A stretch of DNA of 64,000 nucleotides from positions 62,001 through 126,000 of the forward strand of contig NZ_JADF01000019.1 in assembly GCF_000518245.1 (NCBI RefSeq). Direction: 5' to 3'. Of the stretch, positions 5,709 to 62,706 are shown piece by piece (positions within the stretch are counted from its first letter, which is position 1; each line of letters begins with the position of its first letter). Source of the stretch: Brachyspira alvinipulli ATCC 51933 (GTDB lineage: Bacteria; Spirochaetota; Brachyspiria; Brachyspirales; Brachyspiraceae). The notes beneath the pieces were generated by a model. It saw nothing but the letters and a program-made list of their open reading frames with translations, was not told the DNA's origin and made no database searches. The position numbers were made by a program, and so were the translations under genes.

Positions 5709-7271
5709 ATGAATGAAAATTTAGATTGGCAATTACATCAAATGCATAATGAAGGCAGACATCATGATATAATAAAACTTATATTATCGCTTCCTGAGGA
5801 GAGTTTGGACGATGATTTAAAAGGACTTCTTGCTGTTGCCTATAACAATACTGGTAAATTTGATTTGGCAATAGAAACACTTAATTCTTTAAGCGAAGAA
5901 ACTAGAAATCATCATACTTGGTTTTATAAAATATCTTATGCTTATTTAGGTAAAACAGATATAGGCAATGCTTCTTATAATATAGAAAAGGCAATATCTA
6001 TTCTTGAAATTAATAAGCCAAATATAAGTATAGAAGAATATAATTATTATAACAATTTATATAATGGATTTAAAGAAGAGATAAAAAAAGATGGTATGCA
6101 TTATACAGCAAACAGTGTTGATATTAATGATGCCGATTCTATCATAAAGGATATATCATCTATTTTATCTAATGATGTAGAACATGAAATAGTGGAAGGA
6201 AGTATTGTTATAAAGGATTGGAATGTATTTATAAATGCTTATATAGATCAAGTCAATGACAGAAGTGCTACGGTAAATTATTATATATCAAGTCCTAATT
6301 GGGATAGAGATATATTTGAATGCTGTGCTAGTATAGGAAAGGATGCTAATACTGCACTTGGTCTTTCAAATGGAAGTTTTGTATTTGGTATAATGACTGG
6401 AATAAAAGCTATGAATGAAGGCAGAATACTTGATGAGGCGGAAAGTGAATTTGCAGGAAAAAAACATAAATGGAAAGTTTATACAAGTAATATTGTTAAT
6501 ATGGGAAACAATAACGGTGTGCCTAAAAATGTTAATACTTATTGGAATATGTTTAAAGATGATATATTAAAACGTATAGGAAATCAAAAAATTTGCTACA
6601 TAAAAATATATGGGGCAAAAGCTAAGAATGATTATTCCATAGGAGAGCTTAGAATAAATGATGTTAATATACCAGAGCTCAGCGATAAAATGAATGAGTA
6701 TGTTAAGACTTGGGGAGAAACTGATTTTTCATCTGATAAGCAGTTTTTCTTTTTGGTTCAGGAAGAAGAAACTTATACTCCTTATCCATACAGCAATGAA
6801 GAGATTTTTAATTTTGTTCAGCAGTATTCAAACATTGTTTTAAACTTAGAAGAAACAGATGATGCTTATGAAAAACTTGAGGATATGGCTTATGATTTAG
6901 TAAAAGATAATAGTTTAGCTGTTGATTTATTTTTATTTTTGCCGGAAATATGTGCTGATAATGAGTTTTTTAATGAACTTCATTCTGGAGAGAAAATCAA
7001 TTTTATTTTTGGATCAAAAGAAAAAAATCAAACAGTGTATAAGACTCAGCTTTATACATATTACCTTATTAATAATTATATTTTTGAACTTTTTAGAAAT
7101 GGTATGTTTAATGGAAAAGAAAATGAGATTTATGCTAAGTTTATAAATATGAGTGCTTTATATAATATATATATACAAATAAAGGAAGATTATGAAAAGA
7201 AAAATAAAAAACTTGAAAATCTTGAAGTAAATTTAAGCTATAATGTATCTGATTCTTATATATTATGCTGA
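5709..7271 (+). CDS. Hypothetical protein with N-terminal TPR-like region (possible DUF6348-like core)
   Basis: This is a cytosolic protein of 520 residues. Residues 1-120 look like TPR helices ('LLAVAYNNTGKFDLAIETLNSL', 'WFYKISYAYLGKTDIGNASYNIEKAI'). The middle (about 160-350) is an alpha/beta domain with 'FECCASIGKDANTALGLSNGSFVFG' and 'KICYIKIYGAKAKNDYS', which I associate only weakly with the DUF6348 type. The C-terminal third is helical. There is no signal peptide and no catalytic motif I recognise. A ribosome site AAAGGA precedes the ATG. It is monocistronic as far as visible. Confidence 0.6.
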   Translation: MNENLDWQLHQMHNEGRHHDIIKLILSLPEESLDDDLKGLLAVAYNNTGKFDLAIETLNSLSEETRNHHTWFYKISYAYLGKTDIGNASYNIEKAISILEINKPNISIEEYNYYNNLYNGFKEEIKKDGMHYTANSVDINDADSIIKDISSILSNDVEHEIVEGSIVIKDWNVFINAYIDQVNDRSATVNYYISSPNWDRDIFECCASIGKDANTALGLSNGSFVFGIMTGIKAMNEGRILDEAESEFAGKKHKWKVYTSNIVNMGNNNGVPKNVNTYWNMFKDDILKRIGNQKICYIKIYGAKAKNDYSIGELRINDVNIPELSDKMNEYVKTWGETDFSSDKQFFFLVQEEETYTPYPYSNEEIFNFVQQYSNIVLNLEETDDAYEKLEDMAYDLVKDNSLAVDLFLFLPEICADNEFFNELHSGEKINFIFGSKEKNQTVYKTQLYTYYLINNYIFELFRNGMFNGKENEIYAKFINMSALYNIYIQIKEDYEKKNKKLENLEVNLSYNVSDSYILC

Positions 7272-7384
7272 TAATAAACTATAAATAAAAAGTATAATTT
7301 GATATAATACAAAAATATAAATTATAGTATTGATTATATCCTAAGTGTTAATATAATTAATAAAAAACATTAAGGATATAATAT

Positions 7385-7951
7385 ATGGAAATGAAAGAGT
7401 TTATTGAGTATTGCAGAGAGGGTAACCCTATAAGAAGCACAGAGAAAGAGAAGGGTGCTTTGCTATTTCAATGTTCTCATGAGGCAATGAAAATAACAAG
7501 TAAATTAAATAATAAATACAATACTTCAGATGAGGTTAGAAAGCTATTTGAAGAACTTACAGGAAGAGAAATTGATCCAAGTTTCATGTGCTTTCCTCCT
7601 TTTTATACAGATTTTGGAAAAAATATTATTATAGGAAAAAATGTATTTATAAACATGAATTGCAATTTTCAAGACAGAGGCGGTATAATAATAGGGGACG
7701 GTACTCAAATAGGTATGAATGTAGCTATATCTACTTTAAATCATGGTTTTAATTTAGATGACAGAGATGTTACTTATGCGTCAAAAGTAGTTATAGGGAA
7801 GAATGTATGGATAGGCTCTGGTGTATCTATAGTTCCTAATGTAACTATAGGGGATAATTCGATAATAGCATCTGGTGCTGTTGTAACTAAGGATATACCT
7901 TCAAATGTACTTGTTGGCGGAGTTCCTGCGAGAATTATAAAAAATATATAA
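7385..7951 (+). CDS. Hexapeptide-repeat O-acetyltransferase (maltose/galactoside acetyltransferase type)
   Basis: The 188-residue protein has a left-handed beta-helix made of hexapeptides ('IIIGKNVFINMNCNF', 'GIIIGDGTQIGMNVAI', 'VVIGKNVWIGSGVSIVPNVTIGDNSIIASGAVVTKD'). The 'TLNHGF' segment carries the catalytic-type histidine of LacA/Maa enzymes, which move acetyl from acetyl-CoA to a sugar hydroxyl. An N-terminal helical Maa-type region is present. The real sugar acceptor cannot be told. The gene ends 9 bases before the end of the convergent hsdS. Confidence 0.85.
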   Translation: MEMKEFIEYCREGNPIRSTEKEKGALLFQCSHEAMKITSKLNNKYNTSDEVRKLFEELTGREIDPSFMCFPPFYTDFGKNIIIGKNVFINMNCNFQDRGGIIIGDGTQIGMNVAISTLNHGFNLDDRDVTYASKVVIGKNVWIGSGVSIVPNVTIGDNSIIASGAVVTKDIPSNVLVGGVPARIIKNI

Positions 7952-51741: not shown

Positions 51742-53337
51742 TTACGCTGTTTTCAATATATCTATTTTTTTGGTATCCGTAATATGCCATGTATAAGGCT
51801 TTTTACAATTATTGTACTTCATATTAAATAATGCTATTTTCTCATCATCTGTCATTTTTAAGCTGTTAATATATTTGATTAATTCAATAGCATTATAATT
51901 ATTATAATCAATAATTTTTCTGCTATACTTTATAAATGTTACATTATGTTCTTTTTTATTTTGTCTTATAATAAATCTTCTTTGCTGTCTTGTTAGTATT
52001 GTTTCTTTTGCTGTATTTTCTTTTGTATGTTCTTTACTTTCTATAAAGTTTTTAATATACTCTTCTATCTGTTTATTATATTCCTCATCTATTCCCATAA
52101 GCATTATTAAAAATACAGCATTATTATGTAGTATTTTTAATGGTTTTGAAGGCTCTTTATATATTTCAAGAGTTATTTTATTATTATTATCTTTATTAAT
52201 TGTCTGAGATAATATATTTAATAGATGATCATAATTTATATTTAATGTATGTTCTATATTACTATTTATATTATCTATTATTACATTTGATATATTATGT
52301 ATGTCGCTGTCGGCATAATCTGCTATTGTCAAAATAAGCTGATTTTTATTAAACTTCATTTTCAAGCATTTTGATTTTATTTTGTTTGATTTTTTTAGAC
52401 TTTTTACTGCTTTTTGTATTTCTATCATCTGCTGATTATTTAATATTACATTATATAGTTTTTTATATTCGTCTTTATATTTTTCATTTGCTGTACATGG
52501 TATAATACTTTTATAATTTGGATATGATGCTTCTATTAAAGAACTTGTATATATATAATCATTGTCTATTATTTGTATATATTCGTCATTAATAAATATT
52601 TTTACTGTATCTTCATTATCAATATCTTTATCTATATTAGAGATATTTTTTAATAATGCTTTTATTGCTTCGCTTGGTATAACGGCATTATTTAATTTTC
52701 TGCCTTCGTAATTCATTTTATAAATAGCTATCTGTCTGCCGTCTGTGGACACTATATTTAATGTATTATTATCTAAAAAATCAAAATATAAGCCTTTTAA
52801 TGCCGGACTTCTGAAATTATCTTTTGAAACTGTATTTATACTTTTTTTGAATATATTAAAAAGTTCTTTTTTATTTAATATTATATAATCTTTAAAATTT
52901 CTATTAATATGGCTGTCCGGGTATTCGTCCGCATTCATACCTATGATTAAATGCTGTGTATTTATTTTTCTTTCTCTGCTGTATTTATCTTCTTTTTTTA
53001 TGATATAAGTACCTTTATAAAACATATATATTTTTTGATTTTCCTGTACTGATATATTTATAAAGTCTGCATCATGTTCTTTTATTATATCAAAAAACTT
53101 TTTAGCATATACGCATATTCTGAAATTGTCTTGATTATGATTTATTACTTTTATTCTTTTTTCTATAAAAATATTTTTATCAGTTGCGGCAAGAGTTAAT
53201 ATATTATTTTTAAGCTGTAATAATACATTGCTTTCAATATTATATATTACTTTGCTTTGTATTATTGACATAAAAGTATTTTTTATATCTTTTAAGTTTT
53301 TAGTATTTATTGTTATATAATTAGTTATTTGTTCCAT
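51742..53337 (-). CDS. Beta-sliding-clamp (DnaN)-like protein with C-terminal extension
   Basis: The 531-residue protein has the three-domain clamp pattern. 'SPALKGLYFDFLDNNTLNIVSTDGRQIAIYKM', 'NAVIPSEAIKALLKNI' and 'DEYIQIIDNDYIYTSSLIEASYPNYKSIIP' (split by context) match DnaN domain 2; an end like 'HNNAVFLIMLMGI' (about residue 412) corresponds to the usual VMPMR C-terminus. About 118 extra basic residues follow ('LTRQQRRFIIRQNKKEHNV'). A phage-coded clamp would recruit polymerases or mismatch and ligase partners. The start box AAAGGGCTTAAATATG is shared with neighbours. Confidence 0.82.
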   Translation of the reverse strand: MEQITNYITINTKNLKDIKNTFMSIIQSKVIYNIESNVLLQLKNNILTLAATDKNIFIEKRIKVINHNQDNFRICVYAKKFFDIIKEHDADFINISVQENQKIYMFYKGTYIIKKEDKYSRERKINTQHLIIGMNADEYPDSHINRNFKDYIILNKKELFNIFKKSINTVSKDNFRSPALKGLYFDFLDNNTLNIVSTDGRQIAIYKMNYEGRKLNNAVIPSEAIKALLKNISNIDKDIDNEDTVKIFINDEYIQIIDNDYIYTSSLIEASYPNYKSIIPCTANEKYKDEYKKLYNVILNNQQMIEIQKAVKSLKKSNKIKSKCLKMKFNKNQLILTIADYADSDIHNISNVIIDNINSNIEHTLNINYDHLLNILSQTINKDNNNKITLEIYKEPSKPLKILHNNAVFLIMLMGIDEEYNKQIEEYIKNFIESKEHTKENTAKETILTRQQRRFIIRQNKKEHNVTFIKYSRKIIDYNNYNAIELIKYINSLKMTDDEKIALFNMKYNNCKKPYTWHITDTKKIDILKTA

Positions 53338-53996: not shown

Positions 53997-54036
53997 TATT
54001 AAGCCCCCTTTATTTTTTACTTGCTTTTTTTTTTAT

Positions 54037-54121
54037 AAGCTGTTATAATAAAGCCAGCTTTTAAGGACTTGCATATTACCAGTATACAAGCCCCAATAAT
54101 AGCAAATTATTTACTATTATT
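54037..54121 (-). ncRNA. Structured element A (three hairpins) after tiny membrane-peptide gene A
   Basis: On the minus strand three stems follow in order: AATAATAG / CTATTATT (54121-54095, spanning the peptide stop codon), CTTGTATA / TATGCAAG with a U-G wobble (54090-54068), and AAGCTG / CAGCTT (54060-54037), then an A-rich run into the next gene's leader. The arrangement is repeated at 55059-55145 with base changes that keep pairing. No U-tract, so it is not a simple terminator. Confidence 0.65.
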
Positions 54122-54187
54122 GATTATTACTACGATTGTTATTAAGTCTATTATCATAGTAATAATTAAAAGCGTGGTTTTATCCAT
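54107..54187 (-). CDS. Tiny hydrophobic membrane peptide A
   Basis: A 26-codon ORF starts with ATG at 54187 after GGGAGG (7-base spacing). It is an almost wholly hydrophobic single membrane span ('ITMIIDLITIVVII') with a charged start (MDKTT) and end (NNSK), plus a central Asp. The copy B peptide ('ITILLDILTILVII') is clearly homologous. The size and type match type I toxin or phage small membrane peptides; activity is unknown. Confidence 0.6.
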   Translation of the reverse strand: MDKTTLLIITMIIDLITIVVIINNSK

Positions 54188-54282
54188 CTTAGTGCCTCCC
54201 ATCACTCTAAATTTATATAATACAGTCCCAAGCTGTTTATATAGCCTTTATTAAAATATTAGCTATTTTGATTTAATCTTTT

Positions 54283-54591
54283 TTATATATTTTTTATAAT
54301 ATATTTTTCCTTTTTATCCTCTGTTTCAAACTTTGTTATTATTTCTAAATTATCCGTATAATCTTTTTTTTCTATTTCCTTTACTTCAATTATTAATTGC
54401 TCTATGTCTATACATTCATTACTATTTTTTAAATGATTATAAAGACTTGTTAAACCTTCTAAAGTAAAGCCCAAATATTCATAAGCCGTACAATTATTTA
54501 TTTTTTTGTTATATCCTTGTATACATGCCGATTCTTTTGCATAATACTCAAATAATTCTATAAATGTATTTTTATTTAAAATAGTTCTCAT
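54283..54591 (-). CDS. Small hypothetical phage protein
   Basis: The 102-residue protein ('EYYAKESACIQGYNKKINNCTAYEYLGFTLEGLTSLYNHLK'-type) has an acidic C-terminus. It shares the leader box (AAAAGGGCTTGAAACATG) and the general plan (hydrophobic core helix, Glu-rich second half) with the 54665 product. Not recognised. Confidence 0.55.
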   Translation of the reverse strand: MRTILNKNTFIELFEYYAKESACIQGYNKKINNCTAYEYLGFTLEGLTSLYNHLKNSNECIDIEQLIIEVKEIEKKDYTDNLEIITKFETEDKKEKYIIKNI

Positions 54592-54625
54592 GTTTCAAGC
54601 CCTTTTGATTTTTTTAGTTTTTTAT

Positions 54626-54659
54626 AAGCTAGCTAGTGAAAAAATATACTAACTAGCTT
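54626..54659 (-). repeat. AAGCTAGT hairpin in the leader of the 54283 gene
   Basis: Minus strand AAGCTAGTTAGT pairs with ACTAGCTAGCTT over 12 bases with one U-G wobble, followed by CTTATAAAAAA as in the tail of elements A and B. The wobble is a mismatch on the plus strand, suggesting that the minus-strand RNA is the functional form. Confidence 0.6.
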
Positions 54660-54664
54660 TTTTA

Positions 54665-54964
54665 TTAATGTCTGTAATATAATACAGAATCTACATCATT
54701 ATAATTTTTAAATTTTCTTATAATATATTCGTCTTCGTCTATATCTGTTATATTGTATTCTTTTTTGTATTCATTTTCTGTCAATTCTCCATAATCGCAG
54801 CATAATGCTACAATGTCAAATTCAATTTGTTCGTTTGTTTCTTCTTCAAATTCTTCTAAATATTCAAATAATTCTATTAATCCAATTCTTGAAAAATTAT
54901 TTTTATATGTTTCGTTTGATTCAAATTCTTGTATAAAATCGTATTCTTTTAATGTTTTTGTCAT
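54665..54964 (-). CDS. Small acidic phage protein
   Basis: The 99-residue very acidic protein ('IELFEYLEEFEEETNEQIEFDIVALCCDYGELTENEYKKEYNITDIDEDEYIIRKF'-type, split by context) follows the box AAAGGGGCTTAATTATG. The acidic surface could mimic DNA, as in anti-restriction proteins; that is only a guess. The gene lies just below tiny-peptide element B. Confidence 0.55.
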   Translation of the reverse strand: MTKTLKEYDFIQEFESNETYKNNFSRIGLIELFEYLEEFEEETNEQIEFDIVALCCDYGELTENEYKKEYNITDIDEDEYIIRKFKNYNDVDSVLYYRH

Positions 54965-55058
54965 AATTAAGCCCCTTTAATTTTTTAGTTTTTTCTTAAA
55001 TCTGCGGCAGGTTTATTTTTTACTTACCTGTCTATTTTTTTACTTGCTTTTTTTTTAT

Positions 55059-55145
55059 AAGCTGTTATAATAAAGCCAGCTTTTAAGGACTTGTATATTG
55101 CTAGTATACAAGCCCCAAACATAGCAAGTATTATTTACTATGTTT
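55059..55145 (-). ncRNA. Structured element B (three hairpins) after tiny membrane-peptide gene B
   Basis: Minus-strand stems AAACATAG / CTATGTTT (55145-55117, across the peptide stop), CTTGTATA / TATACAAG (55112-55090) and AAGCTG / CAGCTT (55082-55059) correspond one-to-one with element A. Two base pairs in the first stem differ from A with compensating changes, which supports a conserved RNA fold. Confidence 0.65.
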
Positions 55146-55205
55146 GATTATTACTAATATTGTCAGAATATCTAACAAAATAGTAATAAATAGAAACTCT
55201 AACAT
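55131..55205 (-). CDS. Tiny hydrophobic membrane peptide B
   Basis: A 24-codon ORF starts with ATG at 55205 after AAGGAGG (about 8-base spacing). It begins MLEFLF, has the core 'ITILLDILTILVII' and ends KHSK. It is a single membrane span with one central Asp and is homologous to peptide A, 1.0 kb further along the transcript. The strong ribosome site argues for real translation. Confidence 0.6.
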   Translation of the reverse strand: MLEFLFITILLDILTILVIIKHSK

Positions 55206-55277
55206 TTTTTTATCCTCCTTATTTTTTAGATTTATATAATAATACTATTGTGTAGGGATAGTATTTTATATAGCAAA

Positions 55278-55585: not shown

Positions 55586-55614
55586 ATTATACTCAATTTG
55601 TGCTTAAATGTCAA
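55586..55614 (-). promoter_or_regulatory. Consensus promoter of the minus-strand phage block
   Basis: Minus strand TTGACA (55614-55609), a 17-base spacer containing AAGCAC, and TATAAT (55591-55586). Full match to both sigma-70 hexamers. It drives the block containing the small proteins, tiny peptides, clamp and motor. Confidence 0.9.
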
Positions 55615-55741
55615 TAGTTTTAAGCACAAAAAGCACAAAAAATATTCAAAAATATTAAAAAAATTGCTTTTTTCTTGGGTTTATCCTATTTTTGAATAGA
55701 ATAATATAATTTATTAATATTATTGTGCTTAAATTGTGCTT
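55600..55741. promoter_or_regulatory. Five GTGCTT boxes: candidate RHH operators
   Basis: GTGCTT at 55600-55605, inverted AAGCAC at 55622-55627 and 55631-55636, GTGCTT at 55725-55730 and 55736-55741. The first lies in the spacer of the minus promoter; the last pair abuts the -35 of the plus promoter. Regular TTGTGCTTAAA context. They suit the ribbon-helix-helix protein encoded alongside. Confidence 0.75.
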
Positions 55742-55802: not shown

Positions 55803-56150
55803 ATGGACGAATTAAACAAAAAAAAATACGTATATAAGAGGCTAAGCTCTACAATCAATTTAAATGATGACGAGTTTAATTTACTTGATGATATTGTTGA
55901 AAAAACCGGAATGAATAAAAATCAAATTGTTACTTATGCTTTACGGGAATATTTTAAAAAATATACTGATGAGAATAAACAAGCTGATTCTAATATAGAA
56001 AATAATAATATAATAGTAGATAATCAAAATAATAGTAATGTTCAAATAGATAAATTGAATAATTCTATTAATATATTAAATCAATCTATTAATAATTTAG
56101 CTAGTTTAATAAATAAAAATTCTTCTGATGATACAAAAAAGGTACTGTAA
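55803..56150 (+). CDS. Ribbon-helix-helix (CopG-like) regulator
   Basis: The 115-residue protein has an N-terminal RHH domain ('YVYKRLSSTINLNDDEFNLLDDIVEKTGMNKNQIVTYALREYFKKY', split by context), an Asn-rich middle and a C-terminal heptad-like 'INILNQSINNLASLI' that may oligomerise. Such proteins bind tandem operators as dimers. It faces the minus block across the GTGCTT cluster and precedes the packaging genes, placing it as the likely switch between the two arms. AAGGGG ribosome site. Confidence 0.82.
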   Translation: MDELNKKKYVYKRLSSTINLNDDEFNLLDDIVEKTGMNKNQIVTYALREYFKKYTDENKQADSNIENNNIIVDNQNNSNVQIDKLNNSINILNQSINNLASLINKNSSDDTKKVL

Positions 56151-62088: not shown

Positions 62089-62706
62089 TTAATCTATTTT
62101 TATATATTCCTTTATTTTTTTGAAATTATAGTCAACTAATTTTATGTCGCCAATATCAAAAGTTTCAGGCTGTTTTGAATAAGTGTATATTATACATTTA
62201 AAATTCCAAGTTTCAAAACTAGCTAAATCATTTGTACCTACTGCATAAGCTCTTTTTTTACCTTCTGTATCAAAAATATCGAATTTCATTCCTAATTCAG
62301 GCAGAGGATAATCCATTTTATTTGAAACCATAACACTTAAATAAGCAGTGCCATTATTATCTGTCATAGGTAAAATATCTAAAGTTGTAAAATGTTCAGG
62401 TTCTACCATAATTCTATTCCATACTTCTCTTTTATAAGTTTCTGTATCATTATTATTATTATCATTATTATTAACGTATTCTTCTTTAGAAGGTAAATTG
62501 TTACTAATTAAAGATATAATTGCTAATATAACTATTATTAAAAAAATAAAACCTATAATTTTAGGAGGTGTTGTTTTACTTCTGCAGTGAGGGCAAACAG
62601 TAGCCCAATATTTTATTTCTTCCTTACATTTAGGGCAAACAGTAGCCCAATATTTTATTTCTTCCTTACATTTAGGGCATATTCTAGTTTCTTTTTTATT
62701 ACTCAT
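62089..62706 (-). CDS. Zinc-ribbon membrane protein with duplicated ribbon motif
   Basis: The 205-residue protein has three CPxC pairs at its N-terminus ('ICPKCKEEIKYWATVCPKC', then 'YWATVCPHC'), the middle unit being a tandem copy. A transmembrane helix ('IIGFIFLIIVILAIISLIS') follows, then a Ser/Asn-rich linker and a beta-rich domain ('EVWNRIMVEPEHFTTLDILPM', 'LGMKFDIFDTEGKKRAYAVG'). It resembles cytosolic zinc ribbons tethered to an exported domain. Antisense to phage structural genes, it looks like an inserted cargo gene. Confidence 0.7.
   Translation of the reverse strand: MSNKKETRICPKCKEEIKYWATVCPKCKEEIKYWATVCPHCRSKTTPPKIIGFIFLIIVILAIISLISNNLPSKEEYVNNNDNNNNDTETYKREVWNRIMVEPEHFTTLDILPMTDNNGTAYLSVMVSNKMDYPLPELGMKFDIFDTEGKKRAYAVGTNDLASFETWNFKCIIYTYSKQPETFDIGDIKLVDYNFKKIKEYIKID
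62590..62673. repeat. Perfect 42-bp tandem duplication
   Basis: Two identical in-frame 42-base units (62590-62631 and 62632-62673) add 14 residues with one extra CPKC pair to the zinc-ribbon protein. The lack of any difference points to a recent duplication by slippage. Confidence 0.9.

Follow-up and report, generated by a model that had tools for sequence, protein, structure and literature searches.

The window, a 64,000-nt stretch of the Brachyspira alvinipulli ATCC 51933 genome (NZ_JADF01000019.1, positions 62,001 to 126,000), carries two copies of a short element, A and B, 1.0 kb apart in a prophage block and both on the minus strand. Copy A extends from 55272 to 55044 and copy B from 54243 to 54021, in each case from a hairpin designated H0 to the −35 box of a predicted antisense promoter, and the two are 85% identical across the ~150 nt that they share. 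The order within each copy is H0, GGAGG, peptide ORF, H1 across the stop codon, H2 and an A/T-rich tail, with GGAGG located 7–8 nt 5′ of the start codon in both copies and H0 through tail taking up 206–220 nt. A search of the B. alvinipulli genome revealed no third copy. The features are listed below in window positions.

55586–55614, minus strand: leftward operon promoter TTGACA-17-TATAAT, 5′ of an 88-aa gene and copy A (12/12 consensus)
55233–55272, minus strand: copy A H0, 5′ of the ribosome site (TATATAA/TTATATA as outer stem)
55214–55218, minus strand: copy A ribosome-binding site GGAGG
55131–55205, minus strand: copy A peptide coding sequence, MLEFLFITILLDILTILVIIKHSK, 24 aa (frame intact in 6/6 homologues)
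55147–55190, minus strand: copy A Hc, a covarying hairpin within the coding sequence
55116–55146, minus strand: copy A H1, with the last codons as 5′ arm and the stop codon in the loop
55087–55115, minus strand: copy A H2, 3′ of the stop codon
55059–55082, minus strand: copy A H3, window-specific and unconserved
55044–55071, plus strand: copy A predicted antisense promoter (TTGCTT 55044–55049, 16 nt, TATAAT 55066–55071, TG 55063–55064)
54214–54243, minus strand: copy B H0
54195–54199, minus strand: copy B ribosome-binding site GGAGG
54107–54187, minus strand: copy B peptide coding sequence, MDKTTLLIITMIIDLITIVVIINNSK, 26 aa
54123–54166, minus strand: copy B Hc, a hairpin within the coding sequence
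54094–54122, minus strand: copy B H1, spanning the stop codon
54065–54093, minus strand: copy B H2
54037–54060, minus strand: copy B 3′ tail, the H3 sequence, with additional pairing to the opening codons of copy B
54021–54049, plus strand: copy B predicted antisense promoter (TTGCTT 54021–54026, 17 nt, TATAAT 54044–54049, TG 54041–54042)

Both copies lie where the initial annotation had described two minus-strand elements ~1.0 kb apart encoding peptides of 24 and 26 residues, and the ribosome site that it noted is present as GGAGG before each start codon. H0, the covarying Hc within the coding sequence and, in the tail, the predicted antisense promoter with its invariant extended −10 box are additional to that description.

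We assessed the distribution of the element by DNA and covariance-model searches of 26 Brachyspira species, with one genome per species, and found it in four of the 26, the source genome included, while a neighbour-gene search in IMG/VR yielded one further phage carrying it. Together with A and B, the four homologues, all in related Brachyspira phages, gave six sequences for comparison. An 86-aa gene of the same operon was confined to exactly those four element-bearing genomes, so all five known phages of the family carry the element, which in each case comes after the gene that opens the leftward operon (88 or 101 aa). The slot of copy B is filled by a 225-aa gene in the IMG/VR phage. Another phage record, L030 (IMGVR_UViG_2545555860_000006, 46.7 kb), has both copies with identical sequence at 6312–7581 and evidently represents the very phage that the window carries. 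No homologue was detected outside Brachyspira among the 124 other genera searched in a sample of the phylum, and DNA searches of phages gave no match; the sole plasmid match from the DNA search, 29 bases in Sinorhizobium, and short weak matches in G001, G003, G005 and G018 were discarded as chance. The initial annotation had recognized no known family, and this agrees with the database searches: the Rfam covariance-model search returned nothing near any gathering score, the peptides were without a family in Pfam, NCBIfam and PHROGs (one sub-threshold match of a peptide to a transporter model was attributed to chance), and tblastn found no phage relative of the peptide. Judged by these searches, the element is new in sequence and restricted to a single family of Brachyspira phages.

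The six peptides are 23–26 aa long and each has one hydrophobic span (GRAVY 1.3–2.2), in keeping with the size and hydrophobicity of type I toxins (<60 aa, usually hydrophobic), and those of copies A and B have a central Asp and a K-containing C-terminus. Start codon and reading frame were intact in all six sequences. Variable columns numbered 12, 3 and 16 at the first, second and third codon positions, so that second-position changes were few, and pN/pS ranged from 0.03 to 0.34 among orthologues and from 0.17 to 0.34 between copy A and the orthologues, with copy B more diverged (0.46–0.82). These values indicate that the peptide is under purifying selection; its role as a toxin is putative. 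We also considered a second short ORF, which has a TTG start within H2 and 18 codons in A and B, and rejected it, as it is truncated by a stop in L022 and L023.

Selection on the fold of the mRNA was assessed across the same six sequences. Within Hc, H1 and H2, 95% of cells were paired, and seven pairs were altered on both sides, in 11 cells. None of 500 shuffles matched this pairing, and slid controls paired in just 35–53% of cells. The shuffle test ignores relatedness and the six sequences are few and related, so the case for structure also leans on the distinct pair types and on a bias in mismatch type: G-U occurred in 15 cells (7 columns) and A-C in one cell (1 column). Since this ratio would reverse on the opposite strand, the minus-strand transcript is indicated as the selected molecule. 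The folds of both copies were also better than every one of 200 dinucleotide shuffles (z = −5.2 and −5.8), and with the covariation of Hc, H1 and H2 they give the element the structured mRNA characteristic of type I systems.

The individual hairpins differed in how they vary. The outer seven pairs of H0 are invariant in the six homologues, and its inner stem occurs in two versions, AATACTAT/ATAGTATT and ACAG/CTGT, both of which pair. In Hc, 89% of cells were paired over the six homologues and two pairs were changed on both sides; a further pair runs from A-U through G-U to G-C with a Thr to Ala change at one end and a Val to Ala change at the other, indicating that in Hc an RNA constraint is superimposed on the peptide constraint. 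H1 showed both-sided changes at five of its 12 pairs across homologues, with the arm variants AAACATAG/CTATGTTT, AATAATAG/CTATTATT, AAGAATAG/CTATTCTT and AATAACAAG/CTTGTTATT; in the last of these a codon is lost from the end of the peptide and the hairpin is retained with altered arms. All cells of H2 were paired, and its four variable pairs were all G-U exchanges valid only in the minus-strand RNA. The initial annotation had placed the 5′ arm of H1 in the last codons, with two pairs changed on both sides between A and B, and had given a U-G wobble as the only difference in H2; we found both to be accurate, the two H2 stems differing by a single U-A to U-G change. Its third hairpin, H3, did not hold up as a selected structure, being the same in A and B and having 2–3 of its six pairs broken in all four outside homologues. 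On the whole, the homologues compensate changes in the arms and keep the frame, the opposite of the uncompensated arms and broken frames that would speak against an RNA structure coupled to a selected peptide. Neither H1 nor H2 was retained as a candidate mRNA terminator, as both are without a U-tract (checked in the window, L022 and part of L023).

The tail sequence ATTATAACA is invariant though the overlapping H3 varies, and its plus-strand reading, TGTTATAAT, is an extended −10 box that is invariant in six of six sequences and faces back across the peptide gene. A −35 box with TTG lies 16–17 nt upstream in all six (TTGCTT in four copies, TTGATT or TTGACT otherwise), and conservation of the element stops at this box. 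The tail therefore appears to be kept for the plus-strand extended −10 box and not for H3. The −35 box is poor in four copies (3/6 consensus), and the promoters were absent from the output of a consensus scanner that demands 4/6 in this box. Across 6.8 Mb of strand, TGNTATAAT sites numbered 1108 vs. 638 for the reversed control, an enrichment suggesting that the host probably uses promoters of this type; by genome density, the chance of TGNTATAAT in a given 60-nt stretch is ~1%. The predicted promoter may fire in the host. We found no clear terminator for the predicted antisense RNA. A terminator-like hairpin with a T-run at 54624–54663 points rightwards on the plus strand between two leftward genes, and L046 has a similar one at ~6110–6142 with a changed inner stem and no rightward ORF there. 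We dropped this hairpin as a dedicated terminator for a copy B antisense RNA, because L046, which is without copy B, has its counterpart in the gap between the 96- and 102-aa genes.

In the consensus fold, the region of the ribosome site and start codon pairs with the tail. For copy B, the duplex between the start region and its own tail has an energy of −16.5 kcal/mol, vs. −7.9 to −9.0 for duplexes with the tails of the four outside homologues. The first codons of copy B are wholly different from those of the other copies, yet the pairing with its own tail is strong (equalled in 5 of 1000 shuffles of the tail and in 23 of 1000 shuffles of the start region). The corresponding pairing in the G024 homologue was similar, equalled by 38/1000 tail and 18/1000 start-region shuffles, that of copy A (−7.8 kcal/mol) was no better than shuffles, and the remaining homologues were weak. 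The ribosome site was not clearly more hidden by this pairing. These values are suggestive of start-region/tail pairing in some copies. The tails of A and B are 93% alike vs. 55–57% for their 5′ parts, and for this reason the tail of copy A may have been overwritten by that of copy B.

The comparisons establish, at the level of sequence, a conserved peptide, a selected minus-strand RNA structure and a conserved antisense promoter sequence. We interpret the element as a phage-borne module resembling type I toxin-antitoxin systems and present twice in the window, a reading to which we assign a probability of about 0.6 and in which antisense RNA and toxicity are predicted. The initial annotation had offered a type I toxin-antitoxin system or a leader-peptide switch; conservation of the antisense promoter makes the type I-like option the best reading, and the variable downstream gene speaks against the switch. 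Under the type I-like reading, the 24–26 aa membrane peptide would come from the second cistron (copy A) of a leftward early operon, on an mRNA in which H0, Hc, H1 and H2 form a compact structured domain of ~210–220 nt. An antisense RNA would begin at the extended −10 promoter in the 3′ tail and traverse H2, H1 and the coding sequence, and the resulting duplex would silence the peptide by a translation block, by decay through RNase III or by both; we counted the presence of RNase III for such silencing. In most copies, the 3′ tail may in addition keep the start region in long-range pairing until it is trimmed. A more specific and tentative proposal, which we regard as possible and somewhat doubtful, is that the element represents a new RNA-controlled membrane-peptide family, integrated into the early operon of a phage family and with its coding sequence forming part of a selected RNA fold. 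Start-region/tail pairing, tail trimming and antisense RNA would then jointly set when a toxic peptide appears in the course of infection, and the module would not serve prophage addiction.

Among other explanations, the one that survives best is a structured early mRNA for a non-toxic or mild membrane peptide (for example in superinfection exclusion or host takeover), with the antisense promoter being minor or part of general operon control. RNA structure would then protect or time the message of a gene that stands second in its operon, the consensus promoter, conserved and flanked by putative operator repeats, suggests that this may be mainly an early lytic gene, and peptide and RNA structure are conserved in five of five phages. 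We nevertheless consider it unlikely, as it leaves unexplained the back-facing extended −10 box that is invariant in both copies and all homologues. A leader-peptide switch, in which H1 is opened as the last codons are translated and a downstream gene is thereby controlled, is very improbable. In its favour, H1 has coding sequence as its 5′ arm and the stop codon in its loop, and would be melted by a ribosome terminating there. Against it, the downstream gene varies (99, 116, 106, 141, 141 and 96 aa) and has a ribosome site of its own, with its start ~100–170 nt past the peptide stop; H1 and H2 are not followed by a U-tract terminator, and no conserved alternative pairing to the downstream start was found. 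Least credible is a DNA-level palindromic repeat without RNA function, in which template switching maintains the complementarity of the arms. Quasi-palindrome correction can yield both-sided changes and the element is duplicated in the window, but the greater tolerance of G-U (7 columns) than of A-C (1 column) is an RNA signature specific to one strand, purifying selection acts on the peptide and the operon position is fixed.

In comparison with known systems, the type I-like reading gives a layout that appears closest to yonT/SR6 and an RNA logic that appears closest to aapA/IsoA. Like the element, yonT/SR6 of the Bacillus subtilis prophage SPbeta is a prophage-encoded small toxin gene in an operon with polycistronic mRNA, and its antisense promoter, located at the 3′ end, has an extended −10 box; YonT differs in having 58 aa and an unrelated sequence and in belonging to another phylum, and no conserved hairpin chain is reported for it in the account consulted (PMC5848175). 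In Helicobacter pylori, aapA/IsoA combines a ~30 aa peptide and a structured mRNA of ~225 nt, close to the 206–220 nt of the element, whose start region is paired with the 3′ end and freed by trimming of ~35 nt, with a short antisense RNA opposite the ORF (PMC6733600). Unlike the phage element, aapA/IsoA is chromosomal, and no family match links the two; here the predicted antisense promoter is 3′ of the stop codon, and start/tail pairing is suggestive and missing in copy A. Convergent overlap of toxin mRNA and antisense RNA on prophages, with small hydrophobic toxins, also characterizes txpA/RatA, bsrG/SR4 and the Clostridioides difficile modules (CD0977.1-RCd11 and others; PMC6563280, PMC7699646). 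The C. difficile toxins have 30–56 aa and lysine-rich C-termini, whereas the peptides described here are without a family match. Duplication of a type I locus is known from zorO-orzO/zorP-orzP in E. coli O157:H7 (PMC3919570). That duplication is the likeness to copies A and B, and toxin and RNA are different. The antitoxin RNA of zorO-orzO/zorP-orzP is divergent beside the toxin gene and not opposite its 3′ end.

A 2025 paper records type I systems earlier only in Proteobacteria, Firmicutes and Tenericutes and adds Cyanobacteria (PMC12390103). Our literature search, made in one open-access library and hence not proof of absence, found no type I system in a spirochaete, and as far as could be found this would be the first type I-like system in Spirochaetota. 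If the module is real, it widens the phylum range of type I systems with a member that has no sequence kin among known families, and it places a single stretch of DNA under three constraints, those of peptide, mRNA fold and antisense promoter. It also suggests that comparative RNA structure together with a conserved antisense −10 box can reveal loci that sequence searches miss.

The leftward operon promoter is conserved, with TTGAC[A/T]-17-TATAAT preceding the first operon gene in five of five phages, and in the window (55586–55741) about five AAGCACAAA/TTTGTGCTT copies, putative operator repeats, lie around it. On account of this conservation and of the repeats around the promoter in the window, the peptide probably ranks among the early products of the phage, with repression in the lysogen. 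The other phages keep the promoter but differ in their repeats (TTTCCGTGA in L022 and L046, TTTCTCG in L023), a pattern resembling specificity groups of repressors. A divergent 115-aa gene at 55803–56150, ribbon-helix-helix-like by eye, is a candidate repressor for these operators, and different small genes (71, 90 and 118 aa) occupy its place in other phages. Strings of the GGGGCTTAA type occur on the minus strand 5′ of several early-gene starts (~55556, 54975, 54602 and 54010), and H2 has as its 3′ arm the complement of such a string (AAGCCCTT in homologues). At 51742–53337, the window encodes a phage DnaN-like sliding clamp with a C-terminal extension, and a second clamp gene, diverged or partial, adjoins it in two related phages (G004 C5 404028–404783 and G021 C63 9414–10550). 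Finally, a protein encoded at 62089–62706 has a tandemly duplicated zinc-ribbon segment with CPKCKEEIKYWATV present twice, and its homologue in L046 (1100–1675) has a single CPKCKEEIKYWATV-type segment.
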